Below, one piece after another: positions 21,379-52,945 of a stretch of DNA of 52,947 nucleotides (the first letter of the stretch is position 1; each line of letters begins with the position of its first letter). The notes under the pieces were generated by a model. The model was not told where the DNA came from. It made no database searches and was given only the letters and a program-made list of their open reading frames with translations. A program made the translations under genes and the position numbers. This DNA is from a bacterium (GTDB taxonomy: Bacteria > Cyanobacteriota > Vampirovibrionia > Gastranaerophilales > Gastranaerophilaceae): assembly GCA_017942035.1 (NCBI GenBank), contig JAGAVG010000024.1:1-52947 (forward strand). The letters run 5' to 3'.

Positions 21379-24357
21379 ATGACAGATATAAAAAATTTAG
21401 ATATTGATTTTTCATTAAAAAAGAATAATGTGGATGAGTTGTTTTTTAATCTTTCCGAAAATCCGGATGGATTTAAAAACAAAGATTTCCGATATACATT
21501 AAGCCTCATTTATCAAACAATAGAAGATGAATTTGAGGGAATTTTTTCAAACCCTCATCCGCCGGTGAGAAACACCAACTTTTTTCTTGTAAATAACAAT
21601 GATAAATTGTCCTTTTTTGTCACTCCGACCAACAATTTTGAGTATTATTTGAAATCTAAAGGGTCGCTTTTCCGTTTTAAATCTGAAATTCTTGGTAATG
21701 ATATCGGATATTCGATGTCACTAGACCTTGTAATGGATTATTTCGGCGGATTTACAGATACTGTTGATATTGAGGCTATGAGTCCGACTTTCATTTATTT
21801 CAACAAGCTTACTTATTTTGTTATGAAATTGGTTGAAAAAATGTATTTTATTCCGGTCGTTAAAAAAAGTAAATCGGGTTCAATGTTCAGAATTGTTTAT
21901 GAACCGATTATTTCAAGCAGTCATCTGGCAAGAATTATAAATCTTTTTGAAGAAAACATTCCGGAAAATTTGTTTATTAAAGGCGAAAAACCGGCGAATT
22001 TTGTAAAAGATTTTATTTACAATTATTTAAATTACGTAATATACAAATTCCTTGGTATTAAGGCGTATAAATTTAAAGATGTGAAATCCGGAACATATCT
22101 TATAAAAGATTTGGAACAGCGTTCTGTAATGCGCGGTGTTGATATTGCAGAAAATTTCTCTCAATGGTTTGACGAGCTTTATCTTGGTAAATATGACGTT
22201 ATTCCGTTCTTTAAGATTGAAAAAATTGAAGATGAGCTTTTTAGATTAAAAGTTCATATCAAAAACCGCAAAACCAGCGAAAGTGTGCTTATTGATGAAT
22301 TGTATGACGATGATAAAATTGTCTTTGGCGCACCGGCAAGCGATATTGCAAGAATAGTTGAAAAACAGCTTAATTATGCAATCAGATATATGCCGGAATT
22401 AGAAACTCTTTTTGAAGATGAAGAAAATCTTTCTCTTGATCTAAATCTAAATGAGGTTTATAAAATTATAACTCAGACGGCTTATTATCTTCAAAAAGCT
22501 CAAATTGAAGTTGTTCTGCCTAAAGAGCTTGTTAATATAATTATTCCGCGTGCATCAATTAACGCAAAAGTAAAAGCTTCCCGCTCGGCAGAGCTTGCTG
22601 ATATATTTAATAACAATTCTTCCGGTAAAATTTCGCTTGATGATATTCTTGATTTTTCATACGAAATCGCTCTGGGCAATGAGAAAATATCTCTTGAGGA
22701 ATTCAATGAACTCGTTAAGAATAATTCAGGGCTTATAAAATACAAAAATAAGTATGTACTTATTGATCAGGAAGAAAGCAAAAAAATCTTTGAACAAATT
22801 GCTAAATCAAACCTCAAATCAATGTCCAGAATGGAACTTATTCATGCTTCAATGTCCGGACAGCTCCAGCAGTATGATTTTGATTATGATGAAGCGTTTG
22901 CGAAAGTTATTCAGGAATTCAACAAGCCGGTTGATGTAAGTGTTCCACAAACCTTAAAAGGTGAATTGAGACCTTATCAAATTACAGGTTTAAAATGGTT
23001 ATGGACAAATATTAGCAAAGGTTTCGGCGCTTGTATGGCTGACGATATGGGACTGGGTAAAACTATTCAGGTTATTTCACTTATTCTAAAGATGAAAGAG
23101 GAAAATAAACTTGATAAACCCGTTCTTGTTGTATGTCCAACCACATTAATGGGTAACTGGATGAAAGAGTTACAGATTTTTGCACCGAATCTTGACGCTG
23201 TGATTTATCATGGAACAGAAAGAAAACTTGACCTGAAACACGATGTAATTCTTACGACCTATGCCATAATGAGAATTGACATAGAAGAGCTTAAGAAAAA
23301 TACCTGGGGCATGATTATTGTGGATGAAGCCCAGAATATTAAAAATCCGGATACAGCCCAAACTCTTGCGATAAAAATGCTGAAATCAGATGTTAAAATT
23401 GCTATGACCGGTACTCCGGTTGAAAACAGATTAACTGAGTTGTGGAGTATTTTCGATTTTATAAATAGAGGTTACTTAGGAACAATGCGCGAATTCCAAA
23501 AAAGTTATGCAATTCCTATTGAAAAATTTAAAGAGAATTCTCGCGCAGGAAAATTAAAAATGTCGATTTCGCCTTTTGTTCTCCGACGTTTGAAAACTGA
23601 TAAAAATGTTATCAGCGACTTGCCGGAAAAAATGGTACTTAACGATTACTGTTACCTATCTAAACCGCAGGCTGTGCTTTATGAAAAAACTCTTAATGAA
23701 ATGATGGAAAAAATCTCAGGATTTACCGGCGTAAACAGAAGAGGTAACATCTTTAAACTTATTACGGCCTTGAAACAGATATGTAATCACCCTTATCAGT
23801 TCTTAAAATCCGGTGAAATGTCCAGAGAATTGTCAGGTAAAATGGATAAATGTATTTCTACTGTTCAAAGCATACTTGATAACGGCGAAAAAACGCTTAT
23901 ATTTACTCAATATAAAGAAATGGGTGATATTTTGTGCAAAGTTCTTGCTCAAGAATGCAATACGGAACCGTTGTTCTTCCACGGATCTTTGTCTGTTCAG
24001 CAGCGTGAAGAGCTGATTAATCGTTTCCAAACAGAAGATGAAGCAAAGATTATGATACTTTCACTCAAAGCCGGCGGAACAGGTTTGAACTTAACAAGCG
24101 CAACAAACGTTATCCACTACGATTTATGGTGGAATCCGGCAGTTGAAGATCAAGCAACAGACAGAACTTATCGTATCGGTCAGGACAAAAACGTAATGGT
24201 TCACAGAATGATTACGCTCGGAACTTTCGAAGAAAAAATAGACGAAATGTTAAAAGCTAAAAAAGAGCTGGCAGATATGGCAGTTTACGAAGGTGAAAAG
24301 ATTATCACTGAACTCTCTGATGAAGAAATCTATGAAATATTTACACTTTCAGCTTAA
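21379..24357 (+). CDS. SNF2-family DNA-dependent ATPase/helicase
   Basis: 992 residues with a large N-terminal region (about 1-520) of unassigned function, as usual in bacterial SNF2 proteins. The ATPase core follows: RPYQITGLKWL, P-loop MADDMGLGKTIQ near residue 556, DEAQNIKN near 647, TGTPVENRLTELWSIF, then the second RecA lobe with SLKAGGTGLNLT and DRTYRIGQDK. Predicted to remodel protein-DNA complexes, possibly at transcription; the substrate is unknown. AAAAGGAAAG precedes ATG. It overlaps the convergent prepilin gene by 4 nt. Confidence 0.94.
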   Translation: MTDIKNLDIDFSLKKNNVDELFFNLSENPDGFKNKDFRYTLSLIYQTIEDEFEGIFSNPHPPVRNTNFFLVNNNDKLSFFVTPTNNFEYYLKSKGSLFRFKSEILGNDIGYSMSLDLVMDYFGGFTDTVDIEAMSPTFIYFNKLTYFVMKLVEKMYFIPVVKKSKSGSMFRIVYEPIISSSHLARIINLFEENIPENLFIKGEKPANFVKDFIYNYLNYVIYKFLGIKAYKFKDVKSGTYLIKDLEQRSVMRGVDIAENFSQWFDELYLGKYDVIPFFKIEKIEDELFRLKVHIKNRKTSESVLIDELYDDDKIVFGAPASDIARIVEKQLNYAIRYMPELETLFEDEENLSLDLNLNEVYKIITQTAYYLQKAQIEVVLPKELVNIIIPRASINAKVKASRSAELADIFNNNSSGKISLDDILDFSYEIALGNEKISLEEFNELVKNNSGLIKYKNKYVLIDQEESKKIFEQIAKSNLKSMSRMELIHASMSGQLQQYDFDYDEAFAKVIQEFNKPVDVSVPQTLKGELRPYQITGLKWLWTNISKGFGACMADDMGLGKTIQVISLILKMKEENKLDKPVLVVCPTTLMGNWMKELQIFAPNLDAVIYHGTERKLDLKHDVILTTYAIMRIDIEELKKNTWGMIIVDEAQNIKNPDTAQTLAIKMLKSDVKIAMTGTPVENRLTELWSIFDFINRGYLGTMREFQKSYAIPIEKFKENSRAGKLKMSISPFVLRRLKTDKNVISDLPEKMVLNDYCYLSKPQAVLYEKTLNEMMEKISGFTGVNRRGNIFKLITALKQICNHPYQFLKSGEMSRELSGKMDKCISTVQSILDNGEKTLIFTQYKEMGDILCKVLAQECNTEPLFFHGSLSVQQREELINRFQTEDEAKIMILSLKAGGTGLNLTSATNVIHYDLWWNPAVEDQATDRTYRIGQDKNVMVHRMITLGTFEEKIDEMLKAKKELADMAVYEGEKIITELSDEEIYEIFTLSA

Positions 24358-24959
24358 AATTTTTGCGGGTAATCAGATTTAAATTCCCAATTATCAATTT
24401 GCAAGAGTCTGGAACAATATAGCGGAGAGTTTTTACATAAAGTAATTGCTTCATCTCTTGTTTTGGCTCTGCCTTCATAAGTTCCAAACGCTTGATCCGG
24501 ATTTCCGTGCCAAAACTTTCTATCAGATTCAGACATACACAAAGGAAAGTAAAGGCGATCTATTCCATTTTTATTTGGCGGTTTAATGCCATTTACATCA
24601 AAACAAAAATCTAAGCAGCCGCCATCGTGCAATCCAAAAAAAGAACCATCGGAAAAATATACAATTGGCACAGTTCCATTTTTAATTTCCTGATACTTCA
24701 TATAAGGCGCAAAATATGTCATAAAGGTTTCTGTAGCATTTTGGCCACGAACCCAATCTTTAGCCGGGCCAAAATCATTTTCAGCCATTACAATTGCCTG
24801 TAACATTGTTGTATAGAATTTCTTCGTTCGCGCACTGGCTTCCTGCTTTCTATATGATGCTGTAATTGCAGGTAATGTCATTGCCGCCACAACTCCGATT
24901 ATACCCAATGTAATAAGAACTTCTGCAAGTGTAAAACCAATTTGAAAAGTCTTTTTCAT
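24354..24959 (-). CDS. Prepilin-like protein with canonical Gly cleavage site
   Basis: 201 residues. Short leader MKKTFQIG, then FTLAEVLITLGIIG: Gly at -1, Phe at +1 and Glu at +5 fit prepilin peptidase best of all six prepilins here. The mature part has Cys pairs (CLDFCFDVNG; CKNSPLYCSRL) suggesting disulfides. AGAGGGGAA precedes the ATG. The gene is divergent from an XRE regulator across 64 bp carrying two palindromes, so it is probably under that regulator's control. Confidence 0.88.
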   Translation of the reverse strand: MKKTFQIGFTLAEVLITLGIIGVVAAMTLPAITASYRKQEASARTKKFYTTMLQAIVMAENDFGPAKDWVRGQNATETFMTYFAPYMKYQEIKNGTVPIVYFSDGSFFGLHDGGCLDFCFDVNGIKPPNKNGIDRLYFPLCMSESDRKFWHGNPDQAFGTYEGRAKTRDEAITLCKNSPLYCSRLLQIDNWEFKSDYPQKF

Positions 24960-25642: not shown

Positions 25643-26407
25643 CTATTTTTTCAGATAATCCATATTGCCTTTTTCGAGAATCCAGCTGGAACAGCCCCAG
25701 CCTCTTGATTGGGCATTGCAATCGTCAGTTATATTTGCTTTAATACTATTTTTAACAATTAAAAAATGAAAAACATCCCGTCCTAGCGTATTAGGCGGAT
25801 TTTTACCATTTATATCAATCCATAAAGCTCCGCAAGTATCCGGGACGACATCAAAATATGCGCAGTAATTGGGTACTGTCCGCAGCCACATATAACTTCC
25901 ATCAACTAAAATCATTTTGTAATAGGCGACATTATTTTCATAAGCCCAAGTATATCCGTTTCCGTTAAGGTTCTTAGCGCCTCCGGAATATTGAAGACAT
26001 CCGCTTGAAACACCACAATCTTTGGCAATTTTAAGATACGGTTTAAGATAACTCATAAATTTTTCAGCATTTTCTTTTGTAATTCCATCCGGTATACCCC
26101 ATTCATCTAAATAACCATGATCCTTGATTGCCAACAATTGTGCCTGAGACATGACAGAATAGAACTTCTTAACCTTGTTAACCGTAACCCGCTCCTGATG
26201 CTTTTGAATTAAAGTTGGCATGGTCATCGCTGCAACAACCCCGATTATTCCGAGGGTGATTAGAACCTCCGCCAAAGTGAACGCATGTTTTACCCTCTCT
26301 CTTTGTGAGAGGGTTGAATTTGTTAGTGAGCAGTATGCGAACTTACAAATTCGGGAGAGGGTATTTAATGACGTTTCTTGTTTGTCCTCTTGTCTTCTGG
26401 CCTTCAT
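25643..26407 (-). CDS. Prepilin-like protein with repeat-encoded leader
   Basis: 254 residues. The leader of 42 residues is far longer than usual; residues 17-42, ending LSQRERVKHA, are encoded by the 74-bp repeat that also occurs as intergenic DNA at 17815. Then FTLAEVLITLGIIG and a mature domain with Cys pairs (CGVSSGCLQ, CDVNG-like CGALWIDINGKNPPN, CNAQSRGWGCSSW). A close paralogue is the prepilin at 52736 (shared IQKHQERVTVNKVKKFYS and the C-terminus NWILEKGNMDYLKK or a near match). GGAGGAC lies 19 nt upstream of the chosen ATG. A 165-bp element lies upstream. Confidence 0.85.
   Translation of the reverse strand: MKARRQEDKQETSLNTLSRICKFAYCSLTNSTLSQRERVKHAFTLAEVLITLGIIGVVAAMTMPTLIQKHQERVTVNKVKKFYSVMSQAQLLAIKDHGYLDEWGIPDGITKENAEKFMSYLKPYLKIAKDCGVSSGCLQYSGGAKNLNGNGYTWAYENNVAYYKMILVDGSYMWLRTVPNYCAYFDVVPDTCGALWIDINGKNPPNTLGRDVFHFLIVKNSIKANITDDCNAQSRGWGCSSWILEKGNMDYLKK
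26289..26362 (-). repeat. 74-bp repeat, copy translated as prepilin leader
   Basis: Complement of 17815-17888 with one mismatch. Translated in frame it yields a leader segment ending in STLSQRERVK immediately before HAFTLAEV. Confidence 0.93.
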
Positions 26408-26457
26408 TTATCATATTTTGTCCTCCATGTTTTCTTCAATTATCCTTTAAATTCATG

Positions 26458-26622
26458 CACCATAATTTATATTTTGGTGCGAGTCTGCCTGAAACTCACT
26501 AAAACATACCTTTTTAAAATTCAAAAAATCATCAAAAAACAACAAAAGACCACTTGAAAATTGGTGGAAAATATTGTATAATAAGGCTATAAAAAACTCG
26601 CACCAAAATATAAAATTTGGTG
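26458..26622 (-). repeat. 165-bp prepilin-upstream element, copy 1
   Basis: Ends are 27-bp inverted repeats (26458-26484 and 26596-26622, 25/27 matches) starting CACCA and containing TATATTTTGGTGCGAGT. Same length as the copies at 27036 and 52781. Inside, TTGAAA-17-TATAAT (26554-26582) points away from the prepilin, and about 20 nt later comes the hairpin CACCAAA-8-TTTGGTG with T8 (26601-26632). Confidence 0.88.
26554..26582 (+). promoter_or_regulatory. Outward promoter in 165-bp element, copy 1
   Basis: TTGAAA 26554-26559, 17-bp spacer, TATAAT 26577-26582. The same boxes and spacing occur in the other two element copies. Transcription would run away from the prepilin and meet the hairpin and T-run at 26601-26632. 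Confidence 0.7.
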
Positions 26623-26631
26623 TATTTTTTT
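26568..26631. repeat. 64-bp perfect inverted repeat, left arm
   Basis: Exactly complementary to 27027-27090. The arms enclose the small LuxR gene and about 395 bp of DNA. Confidence 0.95.
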
Positions 26632-26632
26632 T
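26601..26632 (+). terminator. Terminator-like hairpin in 165-bp element, copy 1
   Basis: CACCAAA (26601-26607) pairs with TTTGGTG (26616-26622) around an 8-nt loop, followed by TA and eight T. With the promoter just before it, the predicted transcript is only about 40-45 nt. Confidence 0.6.
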
Positions 26633-26674
26633 GTCAATAATATATACCATAAAAACAAATATTTAGGATAAATA

Positions 26675-26887
26675 TTATTCTAAATGAGGAATAGTAGTAA
26701 TACCGAGTTCAATAGATTGTAAAATAGCCGGAATTCTTTTTTGGACGCCTAATTTTCGATAAACACTGCTTAAATGAGCCTTGACCGTATCTCTTTTAAT
26801 TCCTAATTTTTCAGAAATTTCACGATTATTTAATCCGAGAATTGCAAGATTCAAGACTTCCTTTTCTCGTTTTGTTATGTTTTCCAT
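26675..26887 (-). CDS. Stand-alone LuxR/GerE-type HTH regulator between inverted repeats
   Basis: 70 residues consisting only of the GerE domain: NITKREKEVLNLAILGLNN, REISEKLGIKRDTVKAHLSS with the recognition helix, then VYRKLGVQKRIPAILQSIELG. ATG 26887 is chosen because GTGGAGTAGG lies just upstream; six more codons would be possible. It sits between two inverted 165-bp elements that each precede a prepilin, so control of those prepilins is likely. Similar in type to the LuxR gene at 3436. Confidence 0.88.
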   Translation of the reverse strand: MENITKREKEVLNLAILGLNNREISEKLGIKRDTVKAHLSSVYRKLGVQKRIPAILQSIELGITTIPHLE

Positions 26888-27026
26888 AGTTAGCCTACTC
26901 CACATCTATTCTTTAATTAATCTTATTCTTACAATTCTAAAACGTAATTAATTTCTGTCTATTGACTACTTGTCTATTAATTTTCAAATGCGGAGTTAGA
27001 CAAATGTACTAGTTAAAGAATTTAGT

Positions 27027-27090
27027 AAAAAAATACACCAAATTTTATATTTTGGTGCGAGTTTTTTATAGCCTTATTATACAATATTTT
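27027..27090. repeat. 64-bp perfect inverted repeat, right arm
   Basis: Exact complement of 26568-26631. It covers one terminal inverted repeat of the 165-bp element and its TATAAT box. Confidence 0.95.
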
Positions 27091-27200
27091 TAGACACTTT
27101 TCAAGTGGACTTTTGACATTTTTTGATAATTTTTTGAATTTTAAAAGGGTATGTTTTAGGGAGTTTCAGACCCACATGCATCAAAATATAAATTATGGTG
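27036..27200 (+). repeat. 165-bp prepilin-upstream element, copy 2
   Basis: Inverted relative to copy 1. Left end 27036-27062 is identical to the matching end of copy 1; the right end (27174-27200) is more diverged. On the minus strand TTGAAA (complement of 27099-27104), 17 bp, TATAAT (complement of 27076-27081) points toward the LuxR gene, followed by the hairpin and T7. Confidence 0.88.
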
Positions 27201-27243
27201 CATGAATTTAAAGGATAATTTAAGAAAAATGGAGGATAATAGT

Positions 27244-27948
27244 ATGAATATAGAGGACAAGAAGGTCGCATTTACCCTTGCAGAGGTCTTAATCACCCTC
27301 GGTATCATTGGTATTGTGGCGGCGATGACGCTGCCGGCGCTTATTCAAAATCATAGAAATCATGTGGCTGAAACAAGGCTTAAGAAGTTCTATTCTGCAA
27401 TCAATCAGGCGATTATTGCGTCTGAAGCTGTTAACGGCGACAGGACAGAATGGCATAATTCTGATGCTTATGAGCTTACGGAAAGCGGGCGCAATGAATA
27501 TGCTAAAGTATGGTTTGATACTTATTTAAAACCTTATATGAAAATTATAGATGAAGATTATAAAAACAATAGGTTTACAGTCTATTTCTCCGATGGTTCA
27601 GCTTTAGAATTAATGAATCGGGATTGTTTACGCGATTGGATATTTTATATAGGTAATTCGGATAAATGTAATAACAAAATATCTAATCCGTATGGACGCT
27701 GCAAATTTGCTTTTCTTTATGCTCCCGGGTTTTCAAATCATCCTTCTTATATCTATTCAGGCAGAAATTTTGAACCATATAAATTTACCTGGAACGGAGA
27801 CTTAACTTCATTATATACAGGTGAAGGAGCATATAGCAGTACTGCTTGTAATTTGGGGCAACATGGTGATGGACGTTATTGTACAGCTATTATTCAATAC
27901 AACAACTGGAAGATTCCGAAAGATTATCCGAGAAAAATTTTATATTAA
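27244..27948 (+). CDS. Prepilin-like protein
   Basis: 234 residues from ATG 27244, placed by GGAGGATA upstream; an in-frame ATG 14 codons earlier lacks such a site. The leader is short (MNIEDKKVA), then FTLAEVLITLGIIG with Ala at -1. The mature domain has paired cysteines (CLRDW, CNNK, CKFAF, CNLGQHGDGRYC) and ends WKIPKDYPRKILY, similar to the ends of the prepilins at 24959 and 35544. Preceded by the second 165-bp element. Confidence 0.88.
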   Translation: MNIEDKKVAFTLAEVLITLGIIGIVAAMTLPALIQNHRNHVAETRLKKFYSAINQAIIASEAVNGDRTEWHNSDAYELTESGRNEYAKVWFDTYLKPYMKIIDEDYKNNRFTVYFSDGSALELMNRDCLRDWIFYIGNSDKCNNKISNPYGRCKFAFLYAPGFSNHPSYIYSGRNFEPYKFTWNGDLTSLYTGEGAYSSTACNLGQHGDGRYCTAIIQYNNWKIPKDYPRKILY

Positions 27949-27979: not shown

Positions 27980-28474
27980 TTAAACAAGTTTGAAATCGCC
28001 GTTTTTCTTTATATGTTCAACAAGTCCGCCATCATTCAATAATTTAATCATAACCGGCGGGAGCGGTTCTATTTGGGTAATAGTTCCGTTTGTAAGATTT
28101 TTTAAAATTCCTTTTTCAATATCTAATTCAAGTTCGTCACCGGCATCAATTGAATCTGTATCACATTCTATCGCTAAAAGTCCGATATTTATGGCATTTC
28201 GATAAAATATACGTGCAAATGATTTTGCTATAACTGCTCCAACTCCTGCAAGTTTAATAATTTGAGGGGCGTGTTCACGTGAAGAGCCAAGACCGAAGTT
28301 TTTTCCGGCAACTACGAAATCACCTTTTTGCATTTTTGACGCAAATTCAGGGTCTGCATCTTCAAGTACGTGTTTGGCAAACTCCGGCAGATTTGACCTT
28401 AAATGAAACAAACGTCCCGGTGCTATATGGTCTGTTGAAATGTTATCCCCGAATTTAAATGCTTTTCCTCTCAT
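27980..28474 (-). CDS. leuD: 3-isopropylmalate dehydratase small subunit (LeuD/HacB-type)
   Basis: Swivel-domain subunit of an aconitase-like enzyme; with LeuC it isomerises isopropylmalate in leucine synthesis. 164 residues, the short LeuD type. Motifs: NISTDHIAPGRLF near the start, then AGKNFGLGSSREHAP and FARIFYRNAINIGL. ATG 28474 with AGAGGT upstream replaces an upstream start with 23 unlike residues. The large subunit is not in the window, so a homoaconitase-type role is also possible. Confidence 0.92.
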   Translation of the reverse strand: MRGKAFKFGDNISTDHIAPGRLFHLRSNLPEFAKHVLEDADPEFASKMQKGDFVVAGKNFGLGSSREHAPQIIKLAGVGAVIAKSFARIFYRNAINIGLLAIECDTDSIDAGDELELDIEKGILKNLTNGTITQIEPLPPVMIKLLNDGGLVEHIKKNGDFKLV

Positions 28475-28566
28475 ATTAAACCTCTTTTTCTCTATTGAAT
28501 ATACTTTAATTATACTACAACAAAATAAATTTATATGATACAATGAATAAAAATAAGGAAAATAAT

Positions 28567-35543: not shown

Positions 35544-36203
35544 ATGAAAAAAAGTTTTTTAACACATTATGCGGTTCGATGTAAACACGCATTCACTTTG
35601 GCAGAAGTTCTTATCACTCTCGGGATAATTGGTATTGTGGCCGCGATGACGTTGCCTGGGGTGATTAGCAATCATAAAAAATATGTTACGGCACAAAAGT
35701 TGAAAAAGGCATCTACTGTGCTTCTTCAGGCTAACAGAATGTCTTATGCAGCAGAAGGTACAGCTGACAGGCCCGGTTTTACTCCGTTTAACGCGGATGA
35801 AGCTTTAGAAATGTTTAATAGGTATTACGTTCCGTATATTAAATTTGATGAGGTTGTAAAGGGAACAAAAGGGGTCTTTGGTTACATGCAAGATGACATG
35901 GCCTTTTATTTTATAAAAGATGGACAGCCAGACTCTTGGGGAAGTACTTATATGTTAGTATGCACTTCTCATAAAGCATGTAAAAACATTGACGAAAGCC
36001 AGGGTGCCATAAGACAAATTGTTAACGGCAAGGACATATTTACATTCTACACCTCCGGCACTATACCTACTTATGTTTTGGAACACGAATCACGTGAACA
36101 ACGATACTCTGATTGTAAAAATCATACGGGTAAAGAAGCTTGTACAACTCTTATATTCGAGGCGGGATGGACTTTCCCGAAAGACTATCCGATAGGATTT
36201 TAA
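35544..36203 (+). CDS. Prepilin-like protein
   Basis: 219 residues. Leader of 16 residues ending CKHA, then FTLAEVLITLGIIG (Ala at -1, Phe +1, Glu +5). The mature domain includes CTSHKAC and CKNHTGKEAC, likely disulfide pairs, and ends WTFPKDYPIGF, like the ends of two other prepilins here. TGGAGGG precedes ATG. It has a perfect consensus promoter and a divergent small HTH gene. Confidence 0.88.
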   Translation: MKKSFLTHYAVRCKHAFTLAEVLITLGIIGIVAAMTLPGVISNHKKYVTAQKLKKASTVLLQANRMSYAAEGTADRPGFTPFNADEALEMFNRYYVPYIKFDEVVKGTKGVFGYMQDDMAFYFIKDGQPDSWGSTYMLVCTSHKACKNIDESQGAIRQIVNGKDIFTFYTSGTIPTYVLEHESREQRYSDCKNHTGKEACTTLIFEAGWTFPKDYPIGF

Positions 36204-51968: not shown

Positions 51969-52736
51969 TTATTTTTTCAAATAATCCATGTTGCCTTTTT
52001 CGAGAATCCAATTAGTGCAAGACCAACCAGCATCATTCAAGCTACAATTATTATTATCGTACAGCATAATACTATTTTTAGTTATGGCAAAACTAAAAAC
52101 ATCACGGCCTATCATATTAGGAGAATTTTTACCGTTAACATCTATAAAAACAATACCACAAGTATTTTCTATACCCTCATTTTGCGTTGCACAATATGCA
52201 CGGCTTGAAGATCTTAACCACATGTAAGTTCCATCATTTAAAATTAGTTTATAATAAGTATTGCTAGAATCATAATTTATCCAGTTATTGCCATTCAATA
52301 GTTTAACAGTTCCATTTTGTAAACATCCGCTAGATGTACCGCAATCTTTGGCAATTTTCAAATACGGTTTAATATAACTCATTAATTTTTCGGCACTTTT
52401 TTTTGTTTGTCCATCCGACACATCCCACTCATCTAAATAACCATGATCCTTGATTGCCATCAATTGTGCCTGTGACATGATAGAATAAAACTTCTTAACC
52501 TTGTTAACCGTAACCCGCTCCTGATGCTTTTGAATCAAAGAAGGCAGAGTCATCGCCGCAACAATACCGATTATCCCTAGAGTGATTAAGACCTCAGCCA
52601 AAGTGAAGGCATGTTTTACCCTCTCTCTTTGTGAGAGCAAAATTACTCCCTCGCCCCTTGTGGGAGAGGGTTGGGGTGAGGGGTTAACTAGCTTGCCTTC
52701 CTGACCTCTTCTCCTCTGTTCTTCAAATATATTCAT
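51969..52736 (-). CDS. Prepilin-like protein with repeat-encoded leader
   Basis: 255 residues. A 43-residue leader contains NPSPQPSPTRGEG and LSQRERVKHA, both translations of dispersed intergenic repeat types, then FTLAEVLITLGIIG. The mature part closely resembles the prepilin at 26407 (shared IQKHQERVTVNKVKKFYS, AIKDHGYLDEW, YLKIAKDCG) and has the same kind of Cys pairs and C-terminus. AAGGAGGATGAAAGG precedes ATG. A 165-bp element lies upstream. Lies just before rpsE on the same strand. Confidence 0.85.
   Translation of the reverse strand: MNIFEEQRRRGQEGKLVNPSPQPSPTRGEGVILLSQRERVKHAFTLAEVLITLGIIGIVAAMTLPSLIQKHQERVTVNKVKKFYSIMSQAQLMAIKDHGYLDEWDVSDGQTKKSAEKLMSYIKPYLKIAKDCGTSSGCLQNGTVKLLNGNNWINYDSSNTYYKLILNDGTYMWLRSSSRAYCATQNEGIENTCGIVFIDVNGKNSPNMIGRDVFSFAITKNSIMLYDNNNCSLNDAGWSCTNWILEKGNMDYLKK
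52616..52684 (-). repeat. Dispersed palindromic repeats translated as prepilin leader
   Basis: Two repeat types in tandem: the TCTCACAAAGAGAGAGGGT palindrome and a CCCTCTCCCACAAGGGG-type element with GGTTGGGGTGAGGGG. A relative of the second type is at 17760-17798. Confidence 0.8.
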
Positions 52737-52780: not shown

Positions 52781-52945
52781 CACCATAATTTATATTTTGG
52801 TGCATGTAGGCCTGAAATCCACTAAAAAATACCCTTTCAAAATTCGAAAAATTATCAAAAAATGACAGAGGCCCACTTGAAAAGTGTCTAAAAATATTGT
52901 ATAATAAGGCTATAAAAAACTCGCATCAAAATATAAAATTTGGTG
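52781..52945 (-). repeat. 165-bp prepilin-upstream element, copy 3
   Basis: Same length and organisation as 26458-26622 and 27036-27200. TTGAAA 52877-52882, 17-bp spacer, TATAAT 52900-52905 points rightward, away from the prepilin. The end hairpin is present; what follows it is cut by the window edge. Confidence 0.85.

Follow-up and report, generated by a model that had tools for sequence, protein, structure and literature searches.

The analyzed stretch of DNA (the window, 52,947 nucleotides) belongs to a 2.0 Mb genome, assigned to the Ca. Gastranaerophilales type by the company of its recombinase and prepilins, which holds about 112 copies of an element of ~167 bp. With a probability of about 0.8, these copies constitute an array of more than 100 invertible prepilin promoters that are acted on in trans, and a 181-aa tyrosine recombinase encoded on another contig (C69) is the likely enzyme flipping the cassettes. 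In the proposed mechanism, each cassette is composed of site A, ~118 bp with one strong sigma-70 promoter, site B and a T-run, and lies directly upstream of a prepilin gene. In the OFF state the promoter would fire away from the prepilin and be stopped at once by the site B hairpin and the T-run. Recombination between A and B would flip the ~167-bp segment, after which transcription from the promoter would cross site A and enter the leader of the prepilin (ON). The recombinase would probably serve all ~112 cassettes in trans; flipping would occur at each locus within a clone and would alter prepilin transcription.

The starting point was a preliminary description of a regulator gene of 70 residues lying between two outward-facing prepilins and enclosed by a perfect 64-bp inverted repeat with a promoter in each copy. 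This anatomy was borne out in full. The two arms are exact reverse complements (64/64), and complementarity extends beyond them over 245 nt at 84% (26394-26638 with 27020-27264). The gene between the arms has a GerE Pfam match; both promoters point inward, and a hairpin with a T-run follows each of them. The features of the locus, and of a further element in the window, are:

25643-26407, minus strand: prepilin assigned to element 1, with N_methyl motif
26457-26480: site A1, a 24-bp palindromic putative recombination site on the prepilin side of element 1 (GCACCATAATTTATATTTTGGTGC), inverted relative to B1
26554-26582, plus strand: promoter P1 of element 1, TTGAAA-17-TATAAT, directed away from the left prepilin (OFF)
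26568-26631, plus strand: arm 1, covering element 1 in its P1 half (spacer end, -10, site B1, T-run)
26600-26623: site B1 (GCACCAAAATATAAAATTTGGTGT), a putative recombination site on the distal side of element 1, with the outer T-run after it
26675-26905, minus strand: LuxR/GerE single-domain protein of 76 aa, or 70 aa from an inner ATG (GerE Pfam, E 8e-17)
27027-27090, minus strand: arm 2, covering element 2 in its P1 half
27035-27058: site B2, the distal putative recombination site of element 2, with the outer T-run at 27027-27033 on the minus strand
27076-27104, minus strand: promoter P1 of element 2, TTGAAA-17-TATAAT, directed at LuxR and OFF with respect to the right prepilin, from which it points away
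27178-27201: site A2, the prepilin-side putative recombination site of element 2
27202-27948, plus strand: prepilin assigned to element 2, DUF6613 family with a prepilin N-terminus
52877-52945, plus strand: third element of the window, truncated where the contig ends; it lies upstream of the prepilin at 51969-52736 (minus strand) and is OFF

The hairpin of site B1 and its T-run form a predicted terminator of P1 in the OFF orientation. No element copy was detected at the window prepilins 56-727, 24354-24959 and 35544-36203, so that switchable prepilins seem to coexist in the genome with others that are not switchable.

The inverted repeat of the window is not a product of chance, yet it is also not specific to the LuxR locus. 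A 29-nt core of the arm (AAAATATTGTATAATARGGCTATARAAAA) gave 112 matches in the genome at up to two mismatches (53 on the plus and 59 on the minus strand), whereas the reversed control gave none; BLAST with 87 bases of the arm returned 82 matches in the same genome, and the leader-side site type of A1 is present in 81 copies. Two element copies flank LuxR because two prepilin units adjoin there in back-to-back arrangement. A search of 39 genomes placed the element in its own genome only, with nothing but weak matches to ordinary promoters elsewhere, and pattern scans of genome_contigs and viral_contigs, from which the own genome was left out, gave 0 matches. An element common to the lineage was accordingly rejected.

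In an alignment of 41 copies, the promoter, both palindromes and the leader were strongly conserved, while on the promoter side the sequences became unrelated right after the T-run. On the other side, among the 99 copies examined, a prepilin gene (FTLAEVLITLGIIG...) follows nearly always. The two 24-bp palindromes, site A on the prepilin side (as in A1) and site B on the distal side (GCACCAAAATATAAAATTTGGTGC), are nearly identical, inverted relative to each other and separated by ~118 bp; they may resemble Xer dif sites. In 84 of 85 elements, the promoter between them scores 11.5 of a possible 12.5. For promoters reading toward the prepilin the score is at most 9.5, compared with a mean of 8.8 and a 95th percentile of 10 in shuffled sequences. 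The predicted OFF transcript is ~45 nt long and consists of a hairpin and a U-tract, with a mean folding energy of -14.7 kcal/mol over the 85 elements (-10.7 kcal/mol for the 45-nt transcript of the window copy). The gene past the T-run has the same direction as the promoter in 32 copies and the opposite direction in 42; the outward promoter therefore has no consistent client and is not there for the neighbor.

Orientation was classified for 99 of the ~112 copies (one further row of 100 belonged to another genome). In 82 copies read at both flanks, the leader lies at the promoter-distal end and the distal flank at the promoter end, i.e. OFF; about 12 further copies, read from one junction, agree, giving a total of ~94 OFF of 99. 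Three copies are of the ON type. In two of these (C77:56935-56985 and C1:9673-9722) the promoter reads into the prepilin leader, whereas of the third, at the end of C47, only the far flank can be read, and it is the promoter-distal end that adjoins this distal flank. The site of the C1 copy, TATAAATTATGGTGCATGAATTTAAA, joins the P1-side inner half to the leader-type outer half (TTATGGTGCATGAATTTAAA), which is the expected recombinant. The C77 copy carries a distal-type outer half-site on the leader side, an arrangement that simple inversion does not explain. Both promoter orientations occur across loci, and no intact form of one locus in both orientations was seen in this single assembly.

Two contig ends, the start of C82 (112/112 bp) and the end of C29 (89/89 bp), are perfect mirrors through an element, and therefore the same distal flank is joined there to both ends of the segment. 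Such fold-backs are the assembler product expected if both orientations are present among the reads, though they may be an artifact at a palindrome. No fold-back was found at the other readable contig ends examined; false matches from short contigs reading as N runs were excluded.

The preliminary description had also stated that no invertase is visible in the window, which agrees with the list of open reading frames, and a good candidate was found elsewhere in the genome:

C69:88163-88705: candidate tyrosine recombinase, 181 aa, FimB/XerD-like, from the PF00589 set

The genome contains five PF00589 and six PF00239 matches. The serine recombinases were set aside as the flipping enzyme, those found being large (~450-610 aa); XerC/XerD-like and larger recombinases are also present. 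The candidate is a minimal tyrosine recombinase (R-HxxR-H-Y, within ~180-200 aa, no N-terminal Xer domain), and the expected catalytic R/H-x-x-R/H/Y residues are invariant among seven homologs. It matched models of the XerA/XerD/FimB type, all below the curated cut-offs, and reached no curated invertase family cut-off, scoring 48 bits with the NCBIfam tyrosine-type DNA invertase model NF007371 (cut-off 222) and 31 with NF007370 (cut-off 221). By these matches the protein appears related to FimB/FimE and is not filed as such.

Homologs of the candidate were found in 35 of 59 relatives, with up to five per genome, and at 48 loci in a collection of named genomes, mostly Ca. Gastranaerophilales MAGs. 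A long inverted repeat lies beside 32 of 55 recombinase homolog loci but only 1 of 68 control loci, mostly directly downstream of the recombinase gene and with ~90-150 bp between the arms. The closest sampled homolog (G009, 67%) has no inverted repeat beside the gene.

The best evidence on mechanism comes from RGIG9312 (JAGBOW010000096 and JAGBOW010000052). It carries two recombinases, 59-61% identical, each followed by an inverted repeat, a promoter, a second inverted repeat and a prepilin; the promoter faces the prepilin at one locus (L331, ON) and faces away from it at the other (L289, OFF). Of the 24 site positions, 16-19 agree with those of the own genome, and an alignment of the segments spans the promoter. 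The two genomes share a homologous recombinase, site, promoter and prepilin target. In RGIG9312, however, the two loci lie in cis with the recombinase gene, whereas the own genome has one recombinase of this family, which adjoins none of the elements, and ~112 elements away from it. The position of the C69 recombinase relative to the RGIG9312 pair was not settled in the gene tree.

Alternatively, the elements could be static promoter/terminator repeats that were spread with the prepilins by duplication and gene conversion, the flipped copies being old rearrangements and the fold-backs assembly errors. The great uniformity of the copies, the predominance of the OFF orientation, the many contigs that end at elements and the synteny around leuD, which is broken at prepilin units, would all fit such a history. 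It is nevertheless unlikely, as 84 of 85 elements have retained a promoter that is near-perfect yet aimed off the gene, with no preference for the direction of the neighbor, which is hard to explain without flipping. The exact recombinant half-sites of the C1 copy, and the same arrangement beside a recombinase in both orientations in RGIG9312, also speak against it. The outward promoter might instead produce a hairpin sRNA of ~45 nt that regulates prepilin leaders carrying the same palindrome, with inversion being incidental. P1 is indeed followed by a hairpin and T-run with the predicted folding energies given above, and a near-identical palindrome is present in the prepilin leader. Yet no significant Rfam match was found in the 5 kb around the locus (elsewhere there was one sub-threshold match at chance level), so that a known RNA family was rejected, and a regulatory RNA would leave the flipped copies, the inverted orientation of the sites and the recombinase-linked homologs unexplained. 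This explanation is improbable to the point of being nearly negligible.

The arms were originally thought to permit inversion of the ~400-bp segment carrying LuxR, which would switch the regulator. They are perfect over 64 bp and contain the putative site as two copies, B1 and B2, in inverted orientation, so that the same enzyme could in principle flip this segment. The arms are, however, two members of the 112-copy dispersed family tied to prepilins. Copies of LuxR are present on C53 (the window), at C3:47689-48043 and at C29:1-313; at C3:52401-52467 and C23:3-59 the upstream end alone is found. Junctions on the upstream side can be read in the window and at C3:47.7k, which are complete, and at the contig ends C3:52.4k and C23:1, where only the upstream region is present. 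At every one of these junctions the adjoining element has its outward promoter directed at LuxR, and among the readable copies none is inverted relative to that element. The C29 copy is followed by a SulP-like transporter gene instead of a second prepilin unit, and therefore no second arm is needed. Inversion of LuxR is consequently regarded as very improbable. The idea that terminal repeats enclose LuxR as the cargo of a mobile element was rejected, since the homology runs ~175 nt past the arms into the prepilin leaders.

Under the preferred reading of invertible prepilin promoters, the likeness to phase-variable surface loci noted in the preliminary description holds in part: phase variation is supported for the prepilin promoters. 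In view of the flipped copies at other prepilins, the invertible unit would be not LuxR but the promoter segment of ~167 bp within each arm. LuxR would be a repeated passenger downstream of the outward promoter of one cassette, and may be expressed by read-through while the adjoining prepilin is OFF.

A genome-wide family of promoter inversions for paralogous surface genes is known from Mycoplasma penetrans, which has 38 mpl genes (PMC10502178). The mpl/P35 inversion is carried out by a site-specific tyrosine recombinase, according to a passage of PMC9187656 citing Horino 2003 and 2009. In both systems many paralogous surface genes have an invertible promoter each (putatively so for the 112 elements here), and a tyrosine recombinase acts on mpl and is a candidate in the present genome. 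The mpl genes form three clusters of lipoprotein genes, whereas the present copies are dispersed (~112), have prepilin targets and occur in a host of the Gastranaerophilales type; the OFF promoter is, unlike in mpl, predicted to be capped by a terminator made from the recombination site.

RecV of Clostridioides difficile inverts the flagellar switch (PMC8890394). As in such RecV- and Fim-type switches, a recombinase would here invert short regulatory segments, the C69 candidate being a minimal catalytic-domain protein with weak matches to invertase models. Whereas recombinases of those types serve few sites, more than 100 sites of one sequence family are present here, and the C69 recombinase falls below every curated family cut-off. 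A single gut genome can contain as many as 181 invertons, the figure for Mitsuokella multacida in a paper with no mention of Melainabacteria or Gastranaerophilales (PMC11892184). Like invertons of the PhaseFinder type, often near surface genes, the present elements have inverted repeats bounding the putatively invertible segment; they differ in being one repeat family before one gene family.

The open-access library searched for prepilins, phase variation, inversion and type IV pili in Gastranaerophilales and Melainabacteria yielded nothing describing such a system and no report of phase variation in Gastranaerophilales, and a single-cell genome paper from termites only mentions type IV pili (PMC5877343). 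Gastranaerophilales, gut relatives of cyanobacteria, are for the most part uncultured, and their surface biology has been little studied. If true, a single switch sequence governing more than 100 prepilins would rank with the largest dispersed families of promoter inversions that serve one gene family. The element family also accounts for the near-identical repeats that break the assembly. In the present genome leuD (window 27980-28543) and the rpsL side (G000:C32:~6400) are on different contigs, each adjoining a prepilin element, while rpsL, a protein of ~216 aa and leuD stay together in the relatives G001, G008 and G015. The genome may have been rearranged at the element repeats.

Prepilin families of relatives are very large (111 members in G009 and 69 in G015). 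No invertible promoters were found at the sampled prepilins of G001, G008 and G009, where inverted-repeat scores were similar to those of shuffled sequences; G015 was scarcely covered by this test, since the motif search missed its FTMAEV prepilins. At the 12 sampled G009 prepilin genes no inverted repeat exceeded the level of shuffled sequences, and a poly-G stretch is common to two of the sampled upstream regions. In G008, which is of the same family and gave no match to the small recombinase, 14 of 15 sampled prepilins (L221-L249, odd numbers) have a poly-G or poly-C tract of 8-11 nt in the 5' part of the reading frame, and in every case the ATG is connected to the prepilin in the current frame or after a length change of one base. 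The tracts suggest slipped-strand phase variation, a different mechanism acting on the prepilin family.

A broader picture, put forward at about even odds, is that of a non-photosynthetic gut cyanobacterium with genome-wide pilin variation. More than 100 prepilins would have an invertible promoter each, and most would be OFF. One minimal tyrosine recombinase acting in trans would flip these promoters stochastically, and cells would display a small and changing subset of the prepilins; a relative would reach the same end via poly-G/C slippage, and at LuxR loci a flip would swap LuxR for prepilin expression.

The minimal recombinase family offers a testable link to surface diversity, both of prepilins and, in relatives, of polysaccharide-type genes. 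At L255, L256, L290, L299, L305, L317, L320, L322, L324 and other loci, a small recombinase and a long inverted repeat are followed mostly by glycosyltransferase, glf or other polysaccharide-type genes, an order that suggests that surface polysaccharides are phase-variable throughout Gastranaerophilales. At L305 and L324 there is also, downstream, a second recombinase-like gene that has diverged. The recombinase of L297 (FR900442.1, titled Fusobacterium sp. CAG:439) was nearest to those of Ca. Gastranaerophilales in the tree, and the organism name on this record may be wrong. Small recombinase homologs with 46-50% identity were also found outside the Cyanobacteria-Melainabacteria line, in Halanaerobium (L327-L330) and Peptostreptococcus canis (L332), suggesting horizontal spread of the small recombinase.
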